From contig CADDZJ010000004.1 in assembly GCA_902812415.1 (NCBI GenBank), positions 1-64,000 on the forward strand: a DNA stretch of 64,000 nucleotides. Direction: 5' to 3'. A program made the position numbers and the translations under genes. The stretch comes from Acidobacteriota bacterium. Its GTDB lineage: Bacteria; Acidobacteriota; Terriglobia; UBA7540. Of the stretch, positions 356 to 34,532 are shown in pieces. How positions within the stretch are numbered: position 1 is the first letter of the stretch; each line of letters begins with the position of its first letter. The notes beneath the pieces are model-generated. The model was not told the origin of the DNA, did no database searches, and saw only the letters and a program-made list of their open reading frames with translations.

Positions 356-1620
356 ATGGATGCAGCCATTGAATCTCTGTTGCGCGAACTCACGCCGCAA
401 GCGCTCAGCGCGGTCGTTCGCCGTTTCCACGATTTTGCCGCCTCTGAGGACGCCATTCAGGAGTCATTGCTTGCGGCGGCGATTCAGTGGCCGCAGGAAG
501 GCGTTCCCAACAATCCCCGCGGCTGGCTGATTCAGGTGGCCTCGCGGCGCATGATGGATCACCTGCGCAGCGAAGAGGCTCGGCGGCGGCGGGAGAATGA
601 AGCGGCCATCGAGGTGGGCCGTCTGACGCCTGTGGCGGACGCTGAGCCCGAGACGGATCAGGATGATGCCCTCACCTTGCTTTTCATGTGTTGTCACCCC
701 TCTCTGTCCCCGTCGTCAGCCATCGCTCTGACGTTGCGGGCGATGGGTGGATTGACCACAGCCGAAATCGCCCGCGCCTTCCTGGTTCACGAAGCGACCA
801 TGGCGCAGCGCGTCAGCCGTGCCAAGGCCAGCATCAAGGCCTCCGGCGTGCCGTTCCGTCTGCCCACGAACGAAGAGCGATCCCAGCGACTCCGGATTGT
901 GCTGCACGTGCTCTACCTGATTTTCAGCGAGGGCTATGCTTCAAGCACCGGCTCAAAGCTCCAGCGGCTGGAACTCTCCCGCGAAGCGATTCGACTGACA
1001 CGCGCCGTTTACGCTTTGCTTCCGGACAATGCGGAGGTCGCAGGATTGCTGGCGCTTATGTTGCTGACCGATGCGCGCCGCGAACGTCGCCGGACGGGGA
1101 GTTGATCCCGCTCGCGGAGCAGGATCGATCTCGGTGGGATCAGACGGAGATCTCGGAGGGCCTTGCGCTCCTCACCGCGGCCCTGTCGAAAGGATCAATT
1201 GGCGCGTACCAACTTCAGGCTGCCATCGCCGCCGTTCATGATGAAGCCGCATGGTCCGAGGATACCGACTGGCCGCAGATCCTGGCGCTGTATGAACTCC
1301 TTAAATGCATGTCCGACAATCCCATGGTCACGCTCAATCACGCCATCGCCGCGGCTATGGTGCATGGACCGTCCAAAGGGCTTGAGCTGCTCAAGGCGCT
1401 CGACTCCGATGCGCGAATTGCCGGCCAACATCACCTCGACGCCGTTCGTGCCCACCTGTTGGAAATGGCTGGCGACCCTCAAGCTGCCATCACACACTAC
1501 CGTATTGCCGCCAGTCGGACGGCAAGCGTTCCGGAACAGCGTTACCTTATGATGCAAGCGGCCCGGCTCAGCGAGCGCGCCACAAGCACAGGCCGGGCAG
1601 TTCCACGTACGAGCAAGTAA
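356..1620 (+). pseudogene. ECF42-like RNA polymerase sigma factor, frameshifted
   Basis: The first 240 or so codons encode sigma regions 2 and 4 (SEDAIQESLLAA, NPRGWLIQVASRRMMDHLR, a DDALTLLFMCCHPSLS stretch, then the GLTTAEIARAFLVHEATMAQR helix-turn-helix). Translation ends at TGA 1103-1105. The expected C-terminal TPR-like extension continues one frame back (DGELIPLAEQDRSRW, YQLQAAIAAVHDEA, TDWPQILALYELL) to TAA at 1620. The two halves join near 1075-1100 if a single base has been lost. ECF42 factors (Sigma70 r2/r4 plus DUF6596) have this long extension, so the full product would be about 420 residues. It is either a real loss of function or a sequencing or assembly error. No DGPF partner gene is visible. 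Confidence 0.85.
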
Positions 1621-1640: not shown

Positions 1641-1702
1641 GTAGCGCCGGCATCTTGCCGGCTTTATATATATAGAATGAAACCGCCGAGGCGGGGCGCT
1701 AC
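1641..1702. repeat. GTAGCGC...GCGCTAC two-hairpin repeat, copy 1
   Basis: The element is bounded by GTAGCGC (1641) and its inverse GCGCTAC (1696-1702). Inside are two hairpins, GCCGGC-ATCTT-GCCGGC followed by TTTATATATA, and CCGCC-GA-GGCGG. It sits 20 bases after the sigma-factor stop and could act as a terminator. Three longer relatives lie at 31513, 32231 and 32948 with the same ends and layout but different stem sequences. Confidence 0.55.
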
Positions 1703-1746
1703 GTTTTCATACACTGTGGTGAGCCGAAGGCTTATGGCGTCCGCGT

Positions 1747-2223
1747 TCAGTCAAACTCGGCGCGGGGCGGGGGCTGGTTTTGGCTGACATGGCCCGCGGC
1801 AATCTCGGCGATGAAATAGTTTTCGCCGCGAATGTGAGCGCCCGCCATGCGGCGGAGCAGCGCAAGCTGGCCGACGTGGATGAGGGTGTCGGCAATGGGG
1901 CCTTGGAAGAGCTTTTCCGCGGATTCGCGCAGGGGAAGATCAGAAGCCAGGTAGTCGTCAAATGCCTGCAGGGCAGCGAAGAAGCGCGCCGTGTCCTCAT
2001 GCCAAGGAAGCGGTTTTGAACTGTGCCAGTTGGGCGTTCCCTGGGCTGTTGATAGACCCCAGTCCAGAAGGTCGCTCAGATGGGTAAGAATCTCATGCGG
2101 GGTTCGGACGCCCTCACAGGCGCGAAAATCAGCAAAGGCGCCGGGCGCGCCGTGGAGGGTTTTAGCTCATGGGTAGGCCAGAGTCGAAAGCGTGTGACGG
2201 AGCATCGGCCGGCTGACGTCCAT
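1747..2223 (-). pseudogene. DinB-like (four-helix) protein gene with an in-frame stop
   Basis: Reading on the minus strand from ATG at 2223 gives 18 codons (MDVSRPMLRHTLSTLAYP), a TGA at 2167-2169, and then 139 more codons in the same frame to TGA at 1747-1749. The continued reading is clearly protein-like: GAFADFRACEGVRTPHEIL, HLSDLLDWGLS, ARFFAALQAFDDYLASD, AEKLFQGPIADTLIHVGQ, LLRRMAGAHIRGENYF. This is the pattern of DinB-superfamily proteins of about 160 residues, which normally have Arg-Gly-Ala-Lys where this copy has Pro-stop-Ala-Lys. One G to T change (GGA to TGA) would explain the break. It starts 29 bases after rplQ and may be transcribed with it. It could be a true nonsense mutation or a sequence error. 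Confidence 0.75.
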
Positions 2224-30537: not shown

Positions 30538-30637
30538 CACTGGTTCGACCAGTGCGACTTGAAAAGGTTTGACCGTTGAGGCATCACAATCCTCCTCAGG
30601 TGGCTTGATGAGACCATCTGAAAACAAGGAGGATGTG
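30538..30637 (+). mobile_element. IS200-type left end remnant with a translation-blocking hairpin
   Basis: A perfect 7-base-pair hairpin (CACTGGT-TCG-ACCAGTG, 30538-30554) is followed by a stem pairing ATCCTCCT (30589-30596, with CAC at 30585) with AGGAGGAT (30627-30634) just before ATG 30638. Pairing would hide the ribosome binding site AGGAGG. IS200-type elements are known for a terminal hairpin and for an SD-sequestering stem that keeps transposase low. The matching right end was not found. Confidence 0.65.
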
Positions 30638-31387
30638 ATGTCTGAGATTTATCAGAATCTATCCCACTCAAGGTGGGATTGCAAATATCATGTGGTGTTC
30701 GTGCCCAAGCGACGACGCAAGGTGCTGTTCGGCCAAGGGCATACTGACCTGGATCATGGGGTGGGCTCGCGTCTTCAGGCTGCGGCTTACGAGCAACTCC
30801 AGGCGCTTTCCCTGAAGGAAGGGCGGCAGGCAGAAGCTTCGCTCTTCGGCTATCTGGCAGCAAAGTTTAACCCGATGAACAGCGCGCGCGAAAGGCGCGG
30901 GGAGTGGGTCTTTGGGTTGGAGATTTGCAAGCGAAACGCCGCATTTGTGCAGGTCTCGGGCCTGCTGATCCTGATTTTCGCGGGACTATTGACGGCTGCG
31001 GTGCTCATTCTGATTGCAGGCCGCCGTGGCGAGAAGTCTGGCGCACACCGTTTCAGGCCTGCGGCTACGGTGGTTGCCGTGATCAGCGGCATCAGCCTGT
31101 TGCTCTCTTCCGCCACGCTCTATCTCACCTATCGTCCTTATTGGTACATCTTCCAGGGCGCAATCCTGAACGGCGACAAGAGTCGGGTCCGCGACCTTCA
31201 CGACTTTTTAATCGCCAGCCAGTCGCCGTTCCCGTTTCTCGGTCGCGTCTACTTGCCGGAGCTTTCAGTCTATTTCTGGGCAGGCGTAACCCTGCTTTGC
31301 GTTCTCGCACTGGTTCTGATTCTTCTGCGACACCTCGGCTTGTGCGCGCGGCCTGACGGATTTCAACACCATCCTCGTATGTCTTGA
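30638..31387 (+). pseudogene. IS200 transposase N-terminus fused to a membrane protein
   Basis: Codons 1-33 read MSEIYQNLSHSRWDCKYHVV then FVPKRRRKVLFGQ, a typical TnpA (Y1-HuH) start. The HuH and Tyr motifs expected later are absent. After about 30736 the same frame continues into unrelated protein: a polar part with QLQALSLKEGRQAEASLFGY, then three hydrophobic segments (VSGLLILIFAGLLTAAVLIL, VVAVISGISLLLSSATLYLT, WAGVTLLCVLALVLILLRHL). I infer a deletion or insertion that joined a transposon end to a truncated membrane-protein gene. Translation from the IS start may or may not be functional. Confidence 0.6.
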
Positions 31388-31659
31388 AACTTCGCTGACA
31401 GCCGCAAAGGGGGCTACGGCGACAATGCGGACGTGTGTGCGAAATCAGCAGCGGTGGGGGTAGCCACGGCCAGCGTTCTTTCTGGCCCTGGGCTTTTCTT
31501 AGGGAAAGCCGAGTAGCGCAGACCCGCTTCTCAAGGTCTCGGCCTTTCGTTTGACGCGCAAGGAAAAGCCGCGGAGTTACCAAACAACTCCGCGCTACCT
31601 TGCTCTTGGCATTGCGCAACAACAAGACCGGGATTACCTGCATAAATTGGAGAATTTCC
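31388..31659. other. Intergenic DNA with a possible hairpin
   Basis: No gene is supported. GGCCAG and CTGGCC near 31475-31495 pair across a short loop, and a T-rich stretch follows (GGGCTTTTCTT), so a weak terminator is possible. The second half is occupied by repeat copy 2. No strong promoter was seen for the gene at 31660. Confidence 0.3.
31513..31598. repeat. GTAGCGC...GCGCTAC two-hairpin repeat, copy 2
   Basis: The ends are GTAGCGC (31513) and GCGCTAC (to 31598). Hairpin 1 pairs AGACC with GGTCT and hairpin 2 pairs GCGGAGTT with AACTCCGC. The conserved middle reads TTTCGTTTGACGCGCAAGGA. Copy 4 uses different stem bases that still pair, which argues for a structured element. Confidence 0.65.
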
Positions 31660-32187
31660 ATGAATCGTCAAACGAGAAGAGTTTTAGTTTCTGGACTGGC
31701 GGCTTTGCTGATTCAATCGACGGCTTTAGTTTCTTTGGCCGCCGCACGATCACGAAAAAATGCCAACTGGGACAATCTCAAATCCCTGACGCCGGGTCAG
31801 GAAATTCGCGTCGTAATGAACAACGGCAAATCTTACGAAGGTGAGTTCGAGTCGTTGAGCGATGGCGGAATTACGCTTCGGCAGGCAGCGGGTGAGCAGA
31901 CGCTGGCCCGCAAAGACTTCCTTCGCGTTTCCCAGAAGAAAGGACAAAACCACGGAGTGCGAAACACGCTGATTGGCATGGCCGTTGGTGCAGGCGCCGG
32001 CCTCGTGATTGGGCTAACCCCTTATTTTGTCCAAAGAAACTGTACTGAAGGCCCCGCCTTCAGTTGCGGTTATCCCCCCAATCCCCACCTCGTGGAGGCC
32101 CTTACGCCCGTAGGTGGCTTGGTCGGTGCCGCTGTCGGCGCAGCAATACCGACGGGTGGATGGCATGACGTCTACCGCGCTCACTGA
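31660..32187 (+). CDS. Secreted or membrane protein with an LSm-like fold
   Basis: The predicted 175 residues start at ATG 31660 with a signal-like region (RRVLVSGLAALLIQSTALVS). An LSm/SH3-like stretch follows (PGQEIRVVMNNGKSYEGEFE and LSDGGITLRQ), then a glycine-zipper-like segment (GMAVGAGAGLVIGLTP) and a final Gly-rich segment (GGLVGAAVGAAIPTGG). It is probably in the cell envelope. I do not recognise a function. It sits between two copies of the GTAGCGC repeat. Confidence 0.7.
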   Translation: MNRQTRRVLVSGLAALLIQSTALVSLAAARSRKNANWDNLKSLTPGQEIRVVMNNGKSYEGEFESLSDGGITLRQAAGEQTLARKDFLRVSQKKGQNHGVRNTLIGMAVGAGAGLVIGLTPYFVQRNCTEGPAFSCGYPPNPHLVEALTPVGGLVGAAVGAAIPTGGWHDVYRAH

Positions 32188-32230
32188 TCGCCCGCCGGTG
32201 GCGGCAAGTCTATCGGCATGGTAGAGCAAG

Positions 32231-32317
32231 GTGGCACAGACTTGTTGTTCAAGTCTGCGGCCTTTTTTCGACGCGCAGGGAAAAGCCGCGGGCCTGAACG
32301 GCGCAGGTCCGCGCTAC
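32231..32317. repeat. GTAGCGC...GCGCTAC two-hairpin repeat, copy 3
   Basis: The left end is degraded (GTGGCAC) and the right end is GCGCTAC (32311-32317). Hairpin 1 is CAGACTTG-TTGTT-CAAGTCTG, and hairpin 2 pairs GCGGGCCTG with CAGGTCCGC with one mismatch. It occupies the gap between the genes at 31660 and 32344. Confidence 0.6.
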
Positions 32318-32343
32318 CTATTGCGGTGTGGAGGGAGGGAAAA

Positions 32344-32905
32344 ATGAAAATGATCATTGTTGCAACCGTTCTCGCCATGGCAGCTTCGGCTCTCTTTTTC
32401 GCGCAGCACCCCCATCATCAAAGTCCAGGTCGGGCATACGTCTTTTTGGGCCTGGGCTGGGGCGAATCGGCTGTCTTAAACGGGCCCCCATTGCCACCGC
32501 AACCTCTTGGAGCCACGCATCCCGTTATCGAACGCTTCGGCGGCGGCGGAGAATTATTTCTGTATAAAGGGCTCGGCACGGGGCTCGATGTAGGGTACTC
32601 GCGTTATGGACGGTACGCCGACGAGAAGTTTTGGGTCGGGACCGGTGATTTGTCATACCAGTTTGGGCGCAACGCTTCGCGCGGCAAGGTAGATCCGTTC
32701 GTCCTCGCTGGCTTCGGCGGGTTTATCCCGGCGAGCCAGGGCCGCGGCACACCCTGTGGGTGATTTCGGCGCCGGCGCGAACTTCTGGTTTTGGCAAAGG
32801 ACGGCATTACGCCTGGAACTTCGTAGCTATATCAATCCGGCGAATGGCTTCGGATATCCCGGTTCCTACGAGGTCGAATTCCGTGTCGGGTTTACGTTCA
32901 GGTAG
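32344..32905 (+). pseudogene. Small outer-membrane beta-barrel protein, frameshifted
   Basis: From ATG 32344 (SD GGAGGG) a signal peptide (MIIVATVLAMAASALFFAQ) is followed by beta-strand-like sequence (RAYVFLGLGWGE, FLYKGLGTGLDVGYSRYG, VDPFVLAGFGGFIPA). The frame stops at TGA 32761-32763. The next frame continues with GDFGAGANFWFWQRTALRLE, LRSYINPANGFGYPGSYEVE and ends FRVGFTFR at TAG 32905, a typical barrel end with C-terminal Phe-Arg. The two halves fit if one base is extra near 32735-32750. The full product would be about 186 residues. Confidence 0.75.
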
Positions 32906-32947
32906 CGAGGACCCCCCGGTTTTGGGGTCCTCGGTTTGTCAACGTTA

Positions 32948-33036
32948 GTAGCGCAGACCTGCTTCTTAAGGTCTGCGGCCTTTCGTTCGACGCGCAGGGA
33001 AAAGCCGCGGACCTGAAAGGCACAGGTCCGCGCTAC
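32948..33036. repeat. GTAGCGC...GCGCTAC two-hairpin repeat, copy 4
   Basis: The ends are GTAGCGC (32948) and GCGCTAC (33030-33036). Hairpin 1 is AGACCT-8 nt-AGGTCT and hairpin 2 is GCGGACCTG-7 nt-CAGGTCCGC, a perfect 9-base-pair stem. It lies downstream of the barrel gene and has the best-preserved structure of the four copies. Confidence 0.7.
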
Positions 33037-33361
33037 GTTCCCTATCGTAGAGAGGCGAACAGCCATCTGGAAGCATTTTGTCAAGGCATTGCTTTGCGTG
33101 TGCATCATATCCGCCCGCGCCTTTCCCGAGTTCTCTTGAGAACAATCTGCGGCTCTCGGCGGGCATCACGCCGCACCTCAGCAGATTGGGGAAATAACGG
33201 GATAGCGCCGCGCGGCCTTGCCGCAGCCAGCATAGCCATCTCTGTGCCCTCCATGTTTAAGGTTTCCGGTGGCCGGATAACACAGAAAAGACCTTTTAAA
33301 CGCGTAAACATGCGGCCAATTCACAAAACCAATTCCGCGGAGACTCCCTCAGGAGGGGAAG
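33037..33361. other. Intergenic DNA upstream of the methyltransferase
   Basis: About 325 bases with no supported gene. One open plus-strand frame runs into the methyltransferase start but has an unlikely composition (many Arg and Ser, no family). I see no clear promoter. AGGAGGGGAAG just before 33362 is a good SD for the next gene. Confidence 0.35.
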
Positions 33362-33904
33362 ATGCGCAAGCTGGATTTAGGCTGCGGCCGCAATAAGTCT
33401 CCTGGATTTATTGGGGTGGATTCAAACCTGGACGCTACGGCGGCCGATGTTATCGCTGATCTGAACTGTCCCCTGCCTTTCCTAGACGACAGCTTCGACG
33501 AAGTTCGCGCCGTGCACGTCATCGAGCACACGCAGGACATCATGCAAACTATGGCGGAAATTCACCGCGTGACACGCGACGGCGGGCGAGTTTACCTGGT
33601 GACGCCGCACTACACGGATTCAAGTTCATGGCGCGACCCTACCCACCGCTGGCATCTGAACACCTATTCATTCCGATACTGGACGGCTCAGGGGCTGCAT
33701 CACGAGCGCCATTGGTATACCCGACTGGAATTTCGGGAGAGCGATTTGCATGTGGAATTGGCACGGCTGTGGAAATGGATCGGCATTCAGTGGCTGGTGA
33801 ATAGCTTTGAGTGGTTCCGGCGTTTCTGGGAACGGTACTTATGCTTTGCCATTCGCGGTAAGCAGATGGAGTTCACCTTCGAGGTCGTAAAAGTTCATGA
33901 CTGA
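33362..33904 (+). CDS. Class I SAM-dependent methyltransferase
   Basis: The 180-residue protein starts with the SAM-binding motif LDLGCGRNKSPGFIGVD (motif I). Then come IADLNCPLPFLDDSFDEV and VHVIEHTQDIMQTMAEIHR, a Methyltransf_11-type motif, and GGRVYLVTPHYTDSS. The later part is rich in Trp, Tyr and Phe (RRFWERYLCFAI). It is small, with no extra substrate domain, so the acceptor is unknown. GGAGGGGAAG precedes the ATG. Confidence 0.85.
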   Translation: MRKLDLGCGRNKSPGFIGVDSNLDATAADVIADLNCPLPFLDDSFDEVRAVHVIEHTQDIMQTMAEIHRVTRDGGRVYLVTPHYTDSSSWRDPTHRWHLNTYSFRYWTAQGLHHERHWYTRLEFRESDLHVELARLWKWIGIQWLVNSFEWFRRFWERYLCFAIRGKQMEFTFEVVKVHD

Positions 33905-33935
33905 CGCCGAAGCTTCTCACCCGGGGGGAACATCG

Positions 33936-34532
33936 ATGCGAAATCTCTTCTTCATCGCTTGGCTTTGCACAACTCTGGTAGCTGCCTGGCCGATGGCGGG
34001 TTACGGGCAGAACGCGGCGCCGAAGGTGGAACTGTTTGGCGGTGGCACGAAAGTGTGGGGTTATGCAAACGGCAGTCGGTTCGATGAAGGTGGCGGTGAG
34101 GTTTCGGCCACCGGATATTTCAATCGTGTGGTTGGTTTAGAGGCCAACTGGAATATGTTCAGTGGGGAAGTTCCCAACGCGCCCGCATACGGAACCGAGT
34201 TCAGCCTGCTGTTCGGGCCTCACTTCACTTACCATCGCAGTGGTTGGGTGAATCCATTCGCCCATGTTTTGGTGGGTTTTACGCGAGGCACTGCCGAGGC
34301 TCCGAATTTCAGCCTGGTTCACCGTGCAGTTTTTACCATCGGCATGGGCGGCGGGGTCGATGTGAAAATCTGGCGCTTCCTCTGGTTGCGGCCCATCCAA
34401 TTAGACTACCTTCGCGAGTCTTTCCCCAGTGTTCCATACCCCCCAGAGCCATTCCCGAGCACTCTTGAAAACAACTTGCAGCTCTCCGCGGGCTTTACAG
34501 TCCATGTCGGCAGCCTCCGGAGAAATCCGTAG
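33936..34532 (+). CDS. Outer-membrane beta-barrel protein
   Basis: The 198-residue protein has a signal peptide (RNLFFIAWLCTTLVAAWPMA then GYGQ). The mature part has alternating aromatic and Gly residues of a small barrel (KVELFGGGTKVWGYANG, GYFNRVVGLEANWNMFSG, GPHFTYHRSGWVNPFAHVLVG, AVFTIGMGGGVDVKIW) and ends LSAGFTVHVG. I set the start at ATG 33936, preceded by GGGGGG. The open frame also extends to 33897 and overlaps the methyltransferase. It resembles small OmpA-like barrels of Acidobacteria, and the function is unknown. Confidence 0.7.
   Translation: MRNLFFIAWLCTTLVAAWPMAGYGQNAAPKVELFGGGTKVWGYANGSRFDEGGGEVSATGYFNRVVGLEANWNMFSGEVPNAPAYGTEFSLLFGPHFTYHRSGWVNPFAHVLVGFTRGTAEAPNFSLVHRAVFTIGMGGGVDVKIWRFLWLRPIQLDYLRESFPSVPYPPEPFPSTLENNLQLSAGFTVHVGSLRRNP

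Follow-up and report, generated by a model that had tools for sequence, protein, structure and literature searches.

Three two-hairpin elements in the window (the whole 64,000-nucleotide stretch analysed, bases 1-64000 of contig C4) are very probably REPINs, i.e. head-to-head heterodimers of GTAG REPs that would not move by themselves but be carried, as single-stranded DNA, by a RAYT (TnpA-REP), an HuH/tyrosine transposase related to those of IS200. Reading the sequence together with an exact search verified two-hairpin elements at all four places where an initial annotation had put them (Table 1). They do not constitute one four-copy element as had been claimed, since the copies at 31513, 32231 and 32948 belong to one family and the pair at 1641-1702 is built from another REP type. 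Each member of the three-copy family has two GTAG-headed hairpins inverted around a conserved linker, with a left arm of the GCAGACCT type, a linker close to TTTCGTTYGACGCGCARGGAAAAGCC, and a right arm of either the GCGGACCTG or the GCGGAGTT type. When aligned, the three copies resemble each other across arms and linker and not at all outside GTAG...CTAC. The pair at 1641 has a similar layout with stems GCCGGCA/TGCCGGC and CCGC/GCGG and a different spacer, and sits between ORFs 688-1620 (+) and 1707-2000 (-).

Table 1. Hairpin elements and adjacent genes in the window, with the reading or search on which each assignment is based.
Feature	Position	Strand	Description and basis
Putative REPIN copy 1	31513-31598	.	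Read from sequence; exact GTAGCGC...GCGCTAC search; hairpin scan
Copy 1, left REP	~31513-31540	+	Degraded stem AGACC/GGTCT
Copy 1, right REP	31598-31570	-	GTAGCGCGGAGTTGTTTGGTAACTCCGCG; linker separates it from left REP
Putative REPIN copy 2	32231-32317	.	Sequence; hairpin scan; pattern match 32282-32317
Copy 2, left REP	32231-32257	+	Head decayed to GTGGCA
Copy 2, right REP	32317-32287	-	GCGGACCTG/CAGGCCCGC, one A.C mismatch
Putative REPIN copy 3, intact	32948-33036	.	Sequence; exact search; hairpin scans
Copy 3, left REP	32948-32977	+	9-bp stem, 8-nt loop
Copy 3, right REP	33036-33006	-	10-bp stem, 7-nt loop
REPIN-like pair, other REP type	1641-1702	.	Sequence; exact search; hairpin scan
Single GTAG hairpin	32902-32933	+	GTAGCGAGGACCCCCCGGTTTTGGGGTCCTCG; singleton REP or terminator; scan and reading frame
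Gene A (outside element)	31660-32187	+	Small and apparently secreted; weak match to a YMGG-like Gly-zipper
Gene B (outside element)	32344-32905	+	Outer-membrane beta-barrel; frame-shifted near 32757

Among the six arms of the three-copy family, one has lost its canonical head and another has a broken stem. The GTAGCGC...GCGCTAC ends ascribed to all four elements are exact in three, the left end at 32231 reading GTGGCAC. As for the stems listed in the initial annotation, AGACCT/AGGTCT does pair, in the copy at 32948 and not in that at 31513, where the left stem is reduced to 5 bp with one base lost below it; GCGGACCTG/CAGGTCCGC is intact in the copy at 32948 only and imperfect at 32231. With grouping, ends and stem details thus corrected, compensatory stem change is merely suggestive within the window, and it is across relatives that the claim holds strongly (see below). 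The single GTAG hairpin in Table 1 had been overlooked. The TAG stop of gene B (window 32902) lies within the GTAG head of this hairpin, and the stop of a RAYT gene on contig C120 (locus L071, near 1468) is likewise placed within a REP head. The frameshift in gene B marks either a pseudogene or an assembly error. The three copies are spaced at 717-718 bp, which might suggest a tandem unit, but the intervening genes are unrelated and this reading was rejected. Window 33083-33187 encodes 35 residues that are 60% identical to the end of ORF 33897-34529, a partial duplication.

GTAG-headed hairpins are abundant beyond chance. The window contains 10 perfect hairpins with a GT[AG]G head and a stem of at least 7 bp; five shuffles under a first-order Markov model gave 1-3. 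A 464-kb sample of the organism's own genome (a 4.84-Mb assembly) had 30 GTAG-headed hairpins with stems of at least 8 bp, whereas each of eight alternative head words, 1.1 to 3.8 times as frequent as GTAG, headed 0-6. The feet of all perfect hairpins, taken with no condition on the head, gave GTAG as the top 4-mer with 27 occurrences, followed by TTTT with 8. As to whether copies occur inside coding genes at an equal rate, a possibility named at the outset, they do not: 34 of 40 GT[AG]G hairpins fall outside called genes in a sample that is ~80% coding, and one lies in a divergent gap, these figures being rough because the simple gene caller missed genes A and B. A GTAG or GTGG head immediately 5' of a short hairpin, an inverted unit with sharp ends, and many mostly extragenic copies are features by which GTAG REPs and REPINs are recognised, and all three are seen here; a fourth, a RAYT gene flanked by hairpins of the same type, is seen in relatives (see below). 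The own genome has a low number of window-type copies, its 10 pattern matches including about 6 or 7 with hairpins.

Relatives were searched with the pattern GTAGCGC-N18-36-GCGGCTTT, which picks copies by head and foot alone and not by pairing. It gave 519 matches in 37 family genomes against 43 for the reversed pattern. In a phylum sample of 149 genomes (own included), matches outside the family were at about control level, and those listed do not resemble hairpins. The phylum, Acidobacteriota, was assigned through the Acid31F primer signature, which the 16S genes of relatives in this family carry; a 16S gene of the own genome was not found in its assembly. The median number of copies per genome was 15 with an intact cognate RAYT and 5 without one (one-sided Mann-Whitney p = 0.009, genome quality being uncontrolled); genome G001, which is 77% complete, has 39 pattern matches and no good cognate RAYT match. 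Another, GTGG-headed repeat family, GTGGCACGGGCGTCCCGCCCGTG, was noticed at five loci, and L125:11116-11152 holds a palindrome, GTCGCAGACATGGCGTACNGTACGCCATGTCTGCGAC, that has a GTCG head on each strand.

Since these copies were collected without regard to pairing, their stems could be examined for covariation. Among 150 listed copies from relatives, 105 have at least 5 contiguous inner pairs, whereas across 1000 swaps of arms between copies this number averaged 17.1 and never exceeded 31. In genome G008 taken alone, pairing is seen in 64 of the 72 distinct insides, compared with an average of 25.2 and at most 35 under swaps. Every inner stem position shows several Watson-Crick types. About one third of the 150 copies pair poorly, part of them chance pattern matches. 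The wider collection of copies recommended by the initial annotation thus bears out its argument for selection on structure: the covariation is real, and it fits recognition of a head plus a hairpin shape. Covariation as such is not new, since REP subfamilies whose stem residues vary and still complement each other have been described before (PMC3733652). G.T pairs (16) are not clearly preferred over A.C (13), a weak test whose counts do not separate selection on DNA from selection on RNA because the elements occur in both orientations. The stems of G008 fall into 15 seven-base classes, of which seven have at least 6 copies, and this genome has about four RAYTs nearest the clade described below; G007 has 9 five-base stem classes and one good cognate RAYT match. 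With 9 to 15 per genome, stem classes therefore exceed the cognate RAYTs that were found, which number 1 to about 4. This excess could also be explained by past RAYT turnover or by RAYTs missing from incomplete assemblies.

The link to a transposase comes from the loci of RAYT genes. Hairpins of the window type, with its 6-8 nt loops, flank RAYTs at nine loci in relatives; the hairpin at L064, GTAGCGCAGAGTTGTTCTGTAACTCTGCGGCTTTTTG, can be compared with that at window 31598 (-), GTAGCGCGGAGTTGTTTGGTAACTCCGCGGCTTTTCC. Hairpin density around 49 RAYTs is 1.52 per kb in the nearest 250 bp and 0.23 per kb farther out, with a hairpin within 250 bp at only 29 of the 49, and GTAG is again the leading hairpin foot at RAYTs when no head condition is imposed. 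In a RAYT tree of 41 rows, those flanked by long-loop and those flanked by short-loop REPs each fall on one side of a branch with 99/99 support, and REP type requires 1 change each versus a shuffled mean of >7, near-copies easing such clustering. Members of the long-loop clade score above the NCBIfam REP_Tyr_transpos cut-off and have HuH and Y..xNP motifs; the HuH motif is DHWH in 13 of 13 clade members and in none of the other RAYTs examined. One cognate RAYT was matched to TnpA-REP of E. coli (4er8) with an E value of 1.6e-21.

The search for a RAYT-like transposase in the own genome, also advised at the outset, was successful in that RAYTs exist there, but the intact ones carry another REP type. 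Two intact RAYTs score above the NCBIfam NF047646 cut-off and both are flanked by short-loop REPs with other stems. An intact window-type (long-loop) RAYT was not found in the own assembly, which holds fragments only; as this assembly is ~96% complete in 261 contigs, an intact cognate could be absent from it. The fragment on contig C43 is 60-72% identical to long-loop RAYTs and takes its tree position among them, and fragments on C103 and C189 are also closer to the long-loop side. Because the own intact RAYTs go with other REP types and the window-type RAYT was found in fragments only, the copies in the window have the look of orphans in early decay and are presumably inactive at present. The end of contig C120 and the start of C189 apparently share a common gene end and then diverge, one of them into a RAYT locus, possibly as an insertion variant or a repeat-broken assembly.

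An alternative, raised in the initial annotation, is that the elements are bidirectional intrinsic terminators, or mRNA-stabilising or processing elements, kept for the small neighbouring genes, with the covariation reflecting RNA structure. We consider this very unlikely. The window arms do have feet of GGCTTTT or GGCCTTT, which were flagged as terminator-like, the copies sit between tandem genes, and roles in termination and in mRNA stability have been suggested for REPs elsewhere (PMC3733652). However, terminator-like sites in the region (8) are hardly more numerous than in shuffles (5.4, sd 2.2), and the conserved T-run that should follow the hairpin of an intrinsic terminator is not kept at RAYTs: of 29 hairpins adjacent to long-clade RAYTs, 5 have T at five or more of the 8 positions that follow the stem. 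GTAG was present in 28 of these 29, a figure partly built in because the scan required GTAG or GTGG, and neither GTAG nor a transposase neighbour is necessary for a terminator. The lack of a clear preference for G.T pairs, weak as that test is, points the same way. No REPIN lies next to the best orthologues of gene A (L127-L129), and an Rfam search of the window gave no match above the gathering score. A secondary effect of the elements on transcripts may nevertheless exist.

That the hairpins were instead moved by an IS200-type transposase, a 5' tnpA fragment of which lies ~0.8 kb from the first copy with an intact IS200-type gene elsewhere in the genome, is exceedingly improbable, as the intact protein (L013) scores 123 bits as IS200 versus 35 as RAYT and window-type hairpins flank RAYTs of one clade in relatives. 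The fragment, at window 30540-30740, resembles this intact copy (contig C127) and runs in frame into unrelated sequence up to 31387; a weak Y1 transposase match at 30569-31384 was considered as a RAYT remnant and rejected in favour of the IS200 fragment.

The REPIN-like mini-mobile element, another of the possibilities listed initially, is thus the one favoured, given that the elements are GTAG-headed, inverted in pairs, sharply bounded and intergenic and that hairpins of the same kind flank the RAYTs of relatives. According to this REPIN model, the hairpin would fold in the strand that reads GTAG-stem-loop, the RAYT would read the GTAG head and the hairpin and cut at a CT close by, after which the unit of two hairpins would be copied or moved elsewhere, mostly between genes. 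Stem sequences could drift because the head, the stem base and the folded shape would suffice, and a change within the stem would survive if the partner base changes too. A CT lies within 8 bases of the stem in 21 of 29 RAYT-adjacent hairpins, a count for which there is no background figure. The proposed cutting agrees with published biochemistry of E. coli TnpA-REP, in which GTAG is essential, changes in the upper stem and loop are tolerated, and the cut is made at CT (PMC8266576). No filled and empty site pair for the window copies was found via gene A orthologues, whose sites are not comparable as empty sites because they lack gene B as well as the REPIN. A more tentative proposal, which we regard as possible and somewhat doubtful, is that one HWH-motif TnpA-REP clade mobilises many stem classes at once by reading GTAG, the CGC/GCG base and the shape while ignoring stem sequence, which would leave the stems of one genome free to diverge through compensatory change.

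These elements resemble known GTAG REP heterodimers and REPINs (PMC3733652; PMC3116915) in having a GTAG 5' foot, stems of 6-13 bp, hairpins paired in inverted orientation, usually at a distance of 20-100 bp, subfamilies in which stem residues differ and yet remain complementary, intergenic location and linkage to RAYTs. They differ in forming one lineage-restricted type, GTAGCGC...GCGGC, with many stem classes per genome. The portions of those sources available list GTAG REPs for Proteobacteria, Cyanobacteria, Chloroflexi and PVC, and Acidobacteria appear there solely with TIR-flanked transposases. The transposase clade is similar to TnpA-REP group 2, subclass 2.2, the E. coli type (PDB 4er8; PMC6006769, PMC8266576), in its HuH and W[QE] motifs, its catalytic Tyr motif of the form Y..xNP (YIHLNP here, YIHYNP in subclass 2.2), its long REPs and its sequence match to 4er8. 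It differs in the middle HuH residue, which is W, whereas the published class 2 list has L, V, I, F, Y and M (PMC6006769, PMC8266576). Most REPs here combine a perfect stem with a larger loop, unlike the bulged REPs of E. coli; the REPs beside one long-clade RAYT (L057:1301-2229) have a mid-stem T-T mismatch that recalls this bulge. The short-loop REPs of the own genome, with an 8-bp perfect stem, a 3-4 nt loop and GTAG at the foot, resemble the group 3 REPtron of Stenotrophomonas maltophilia (PMC8266576), from which they differ in stems and loops, and this group 3-like type is not that of the three window copies.

The elements are a new acidobacterial GTAG REPIN family with a group-2-like RAYT clade, ordinary in kind, its novelty judged against literature outside subscription. 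As REPINs have mostly been described from Proteobacteria, an acidobacterial family and its transposase clade are added to them. Intergenic hairpins of the REPIN kind should not be annotated by default as terminators or RNAs. The stem variants found under one head and foot, 15 classes in G008 and 9 in G007, form a natural series, which makes it directly testable whether the enzyme reads stem sequence or shape.
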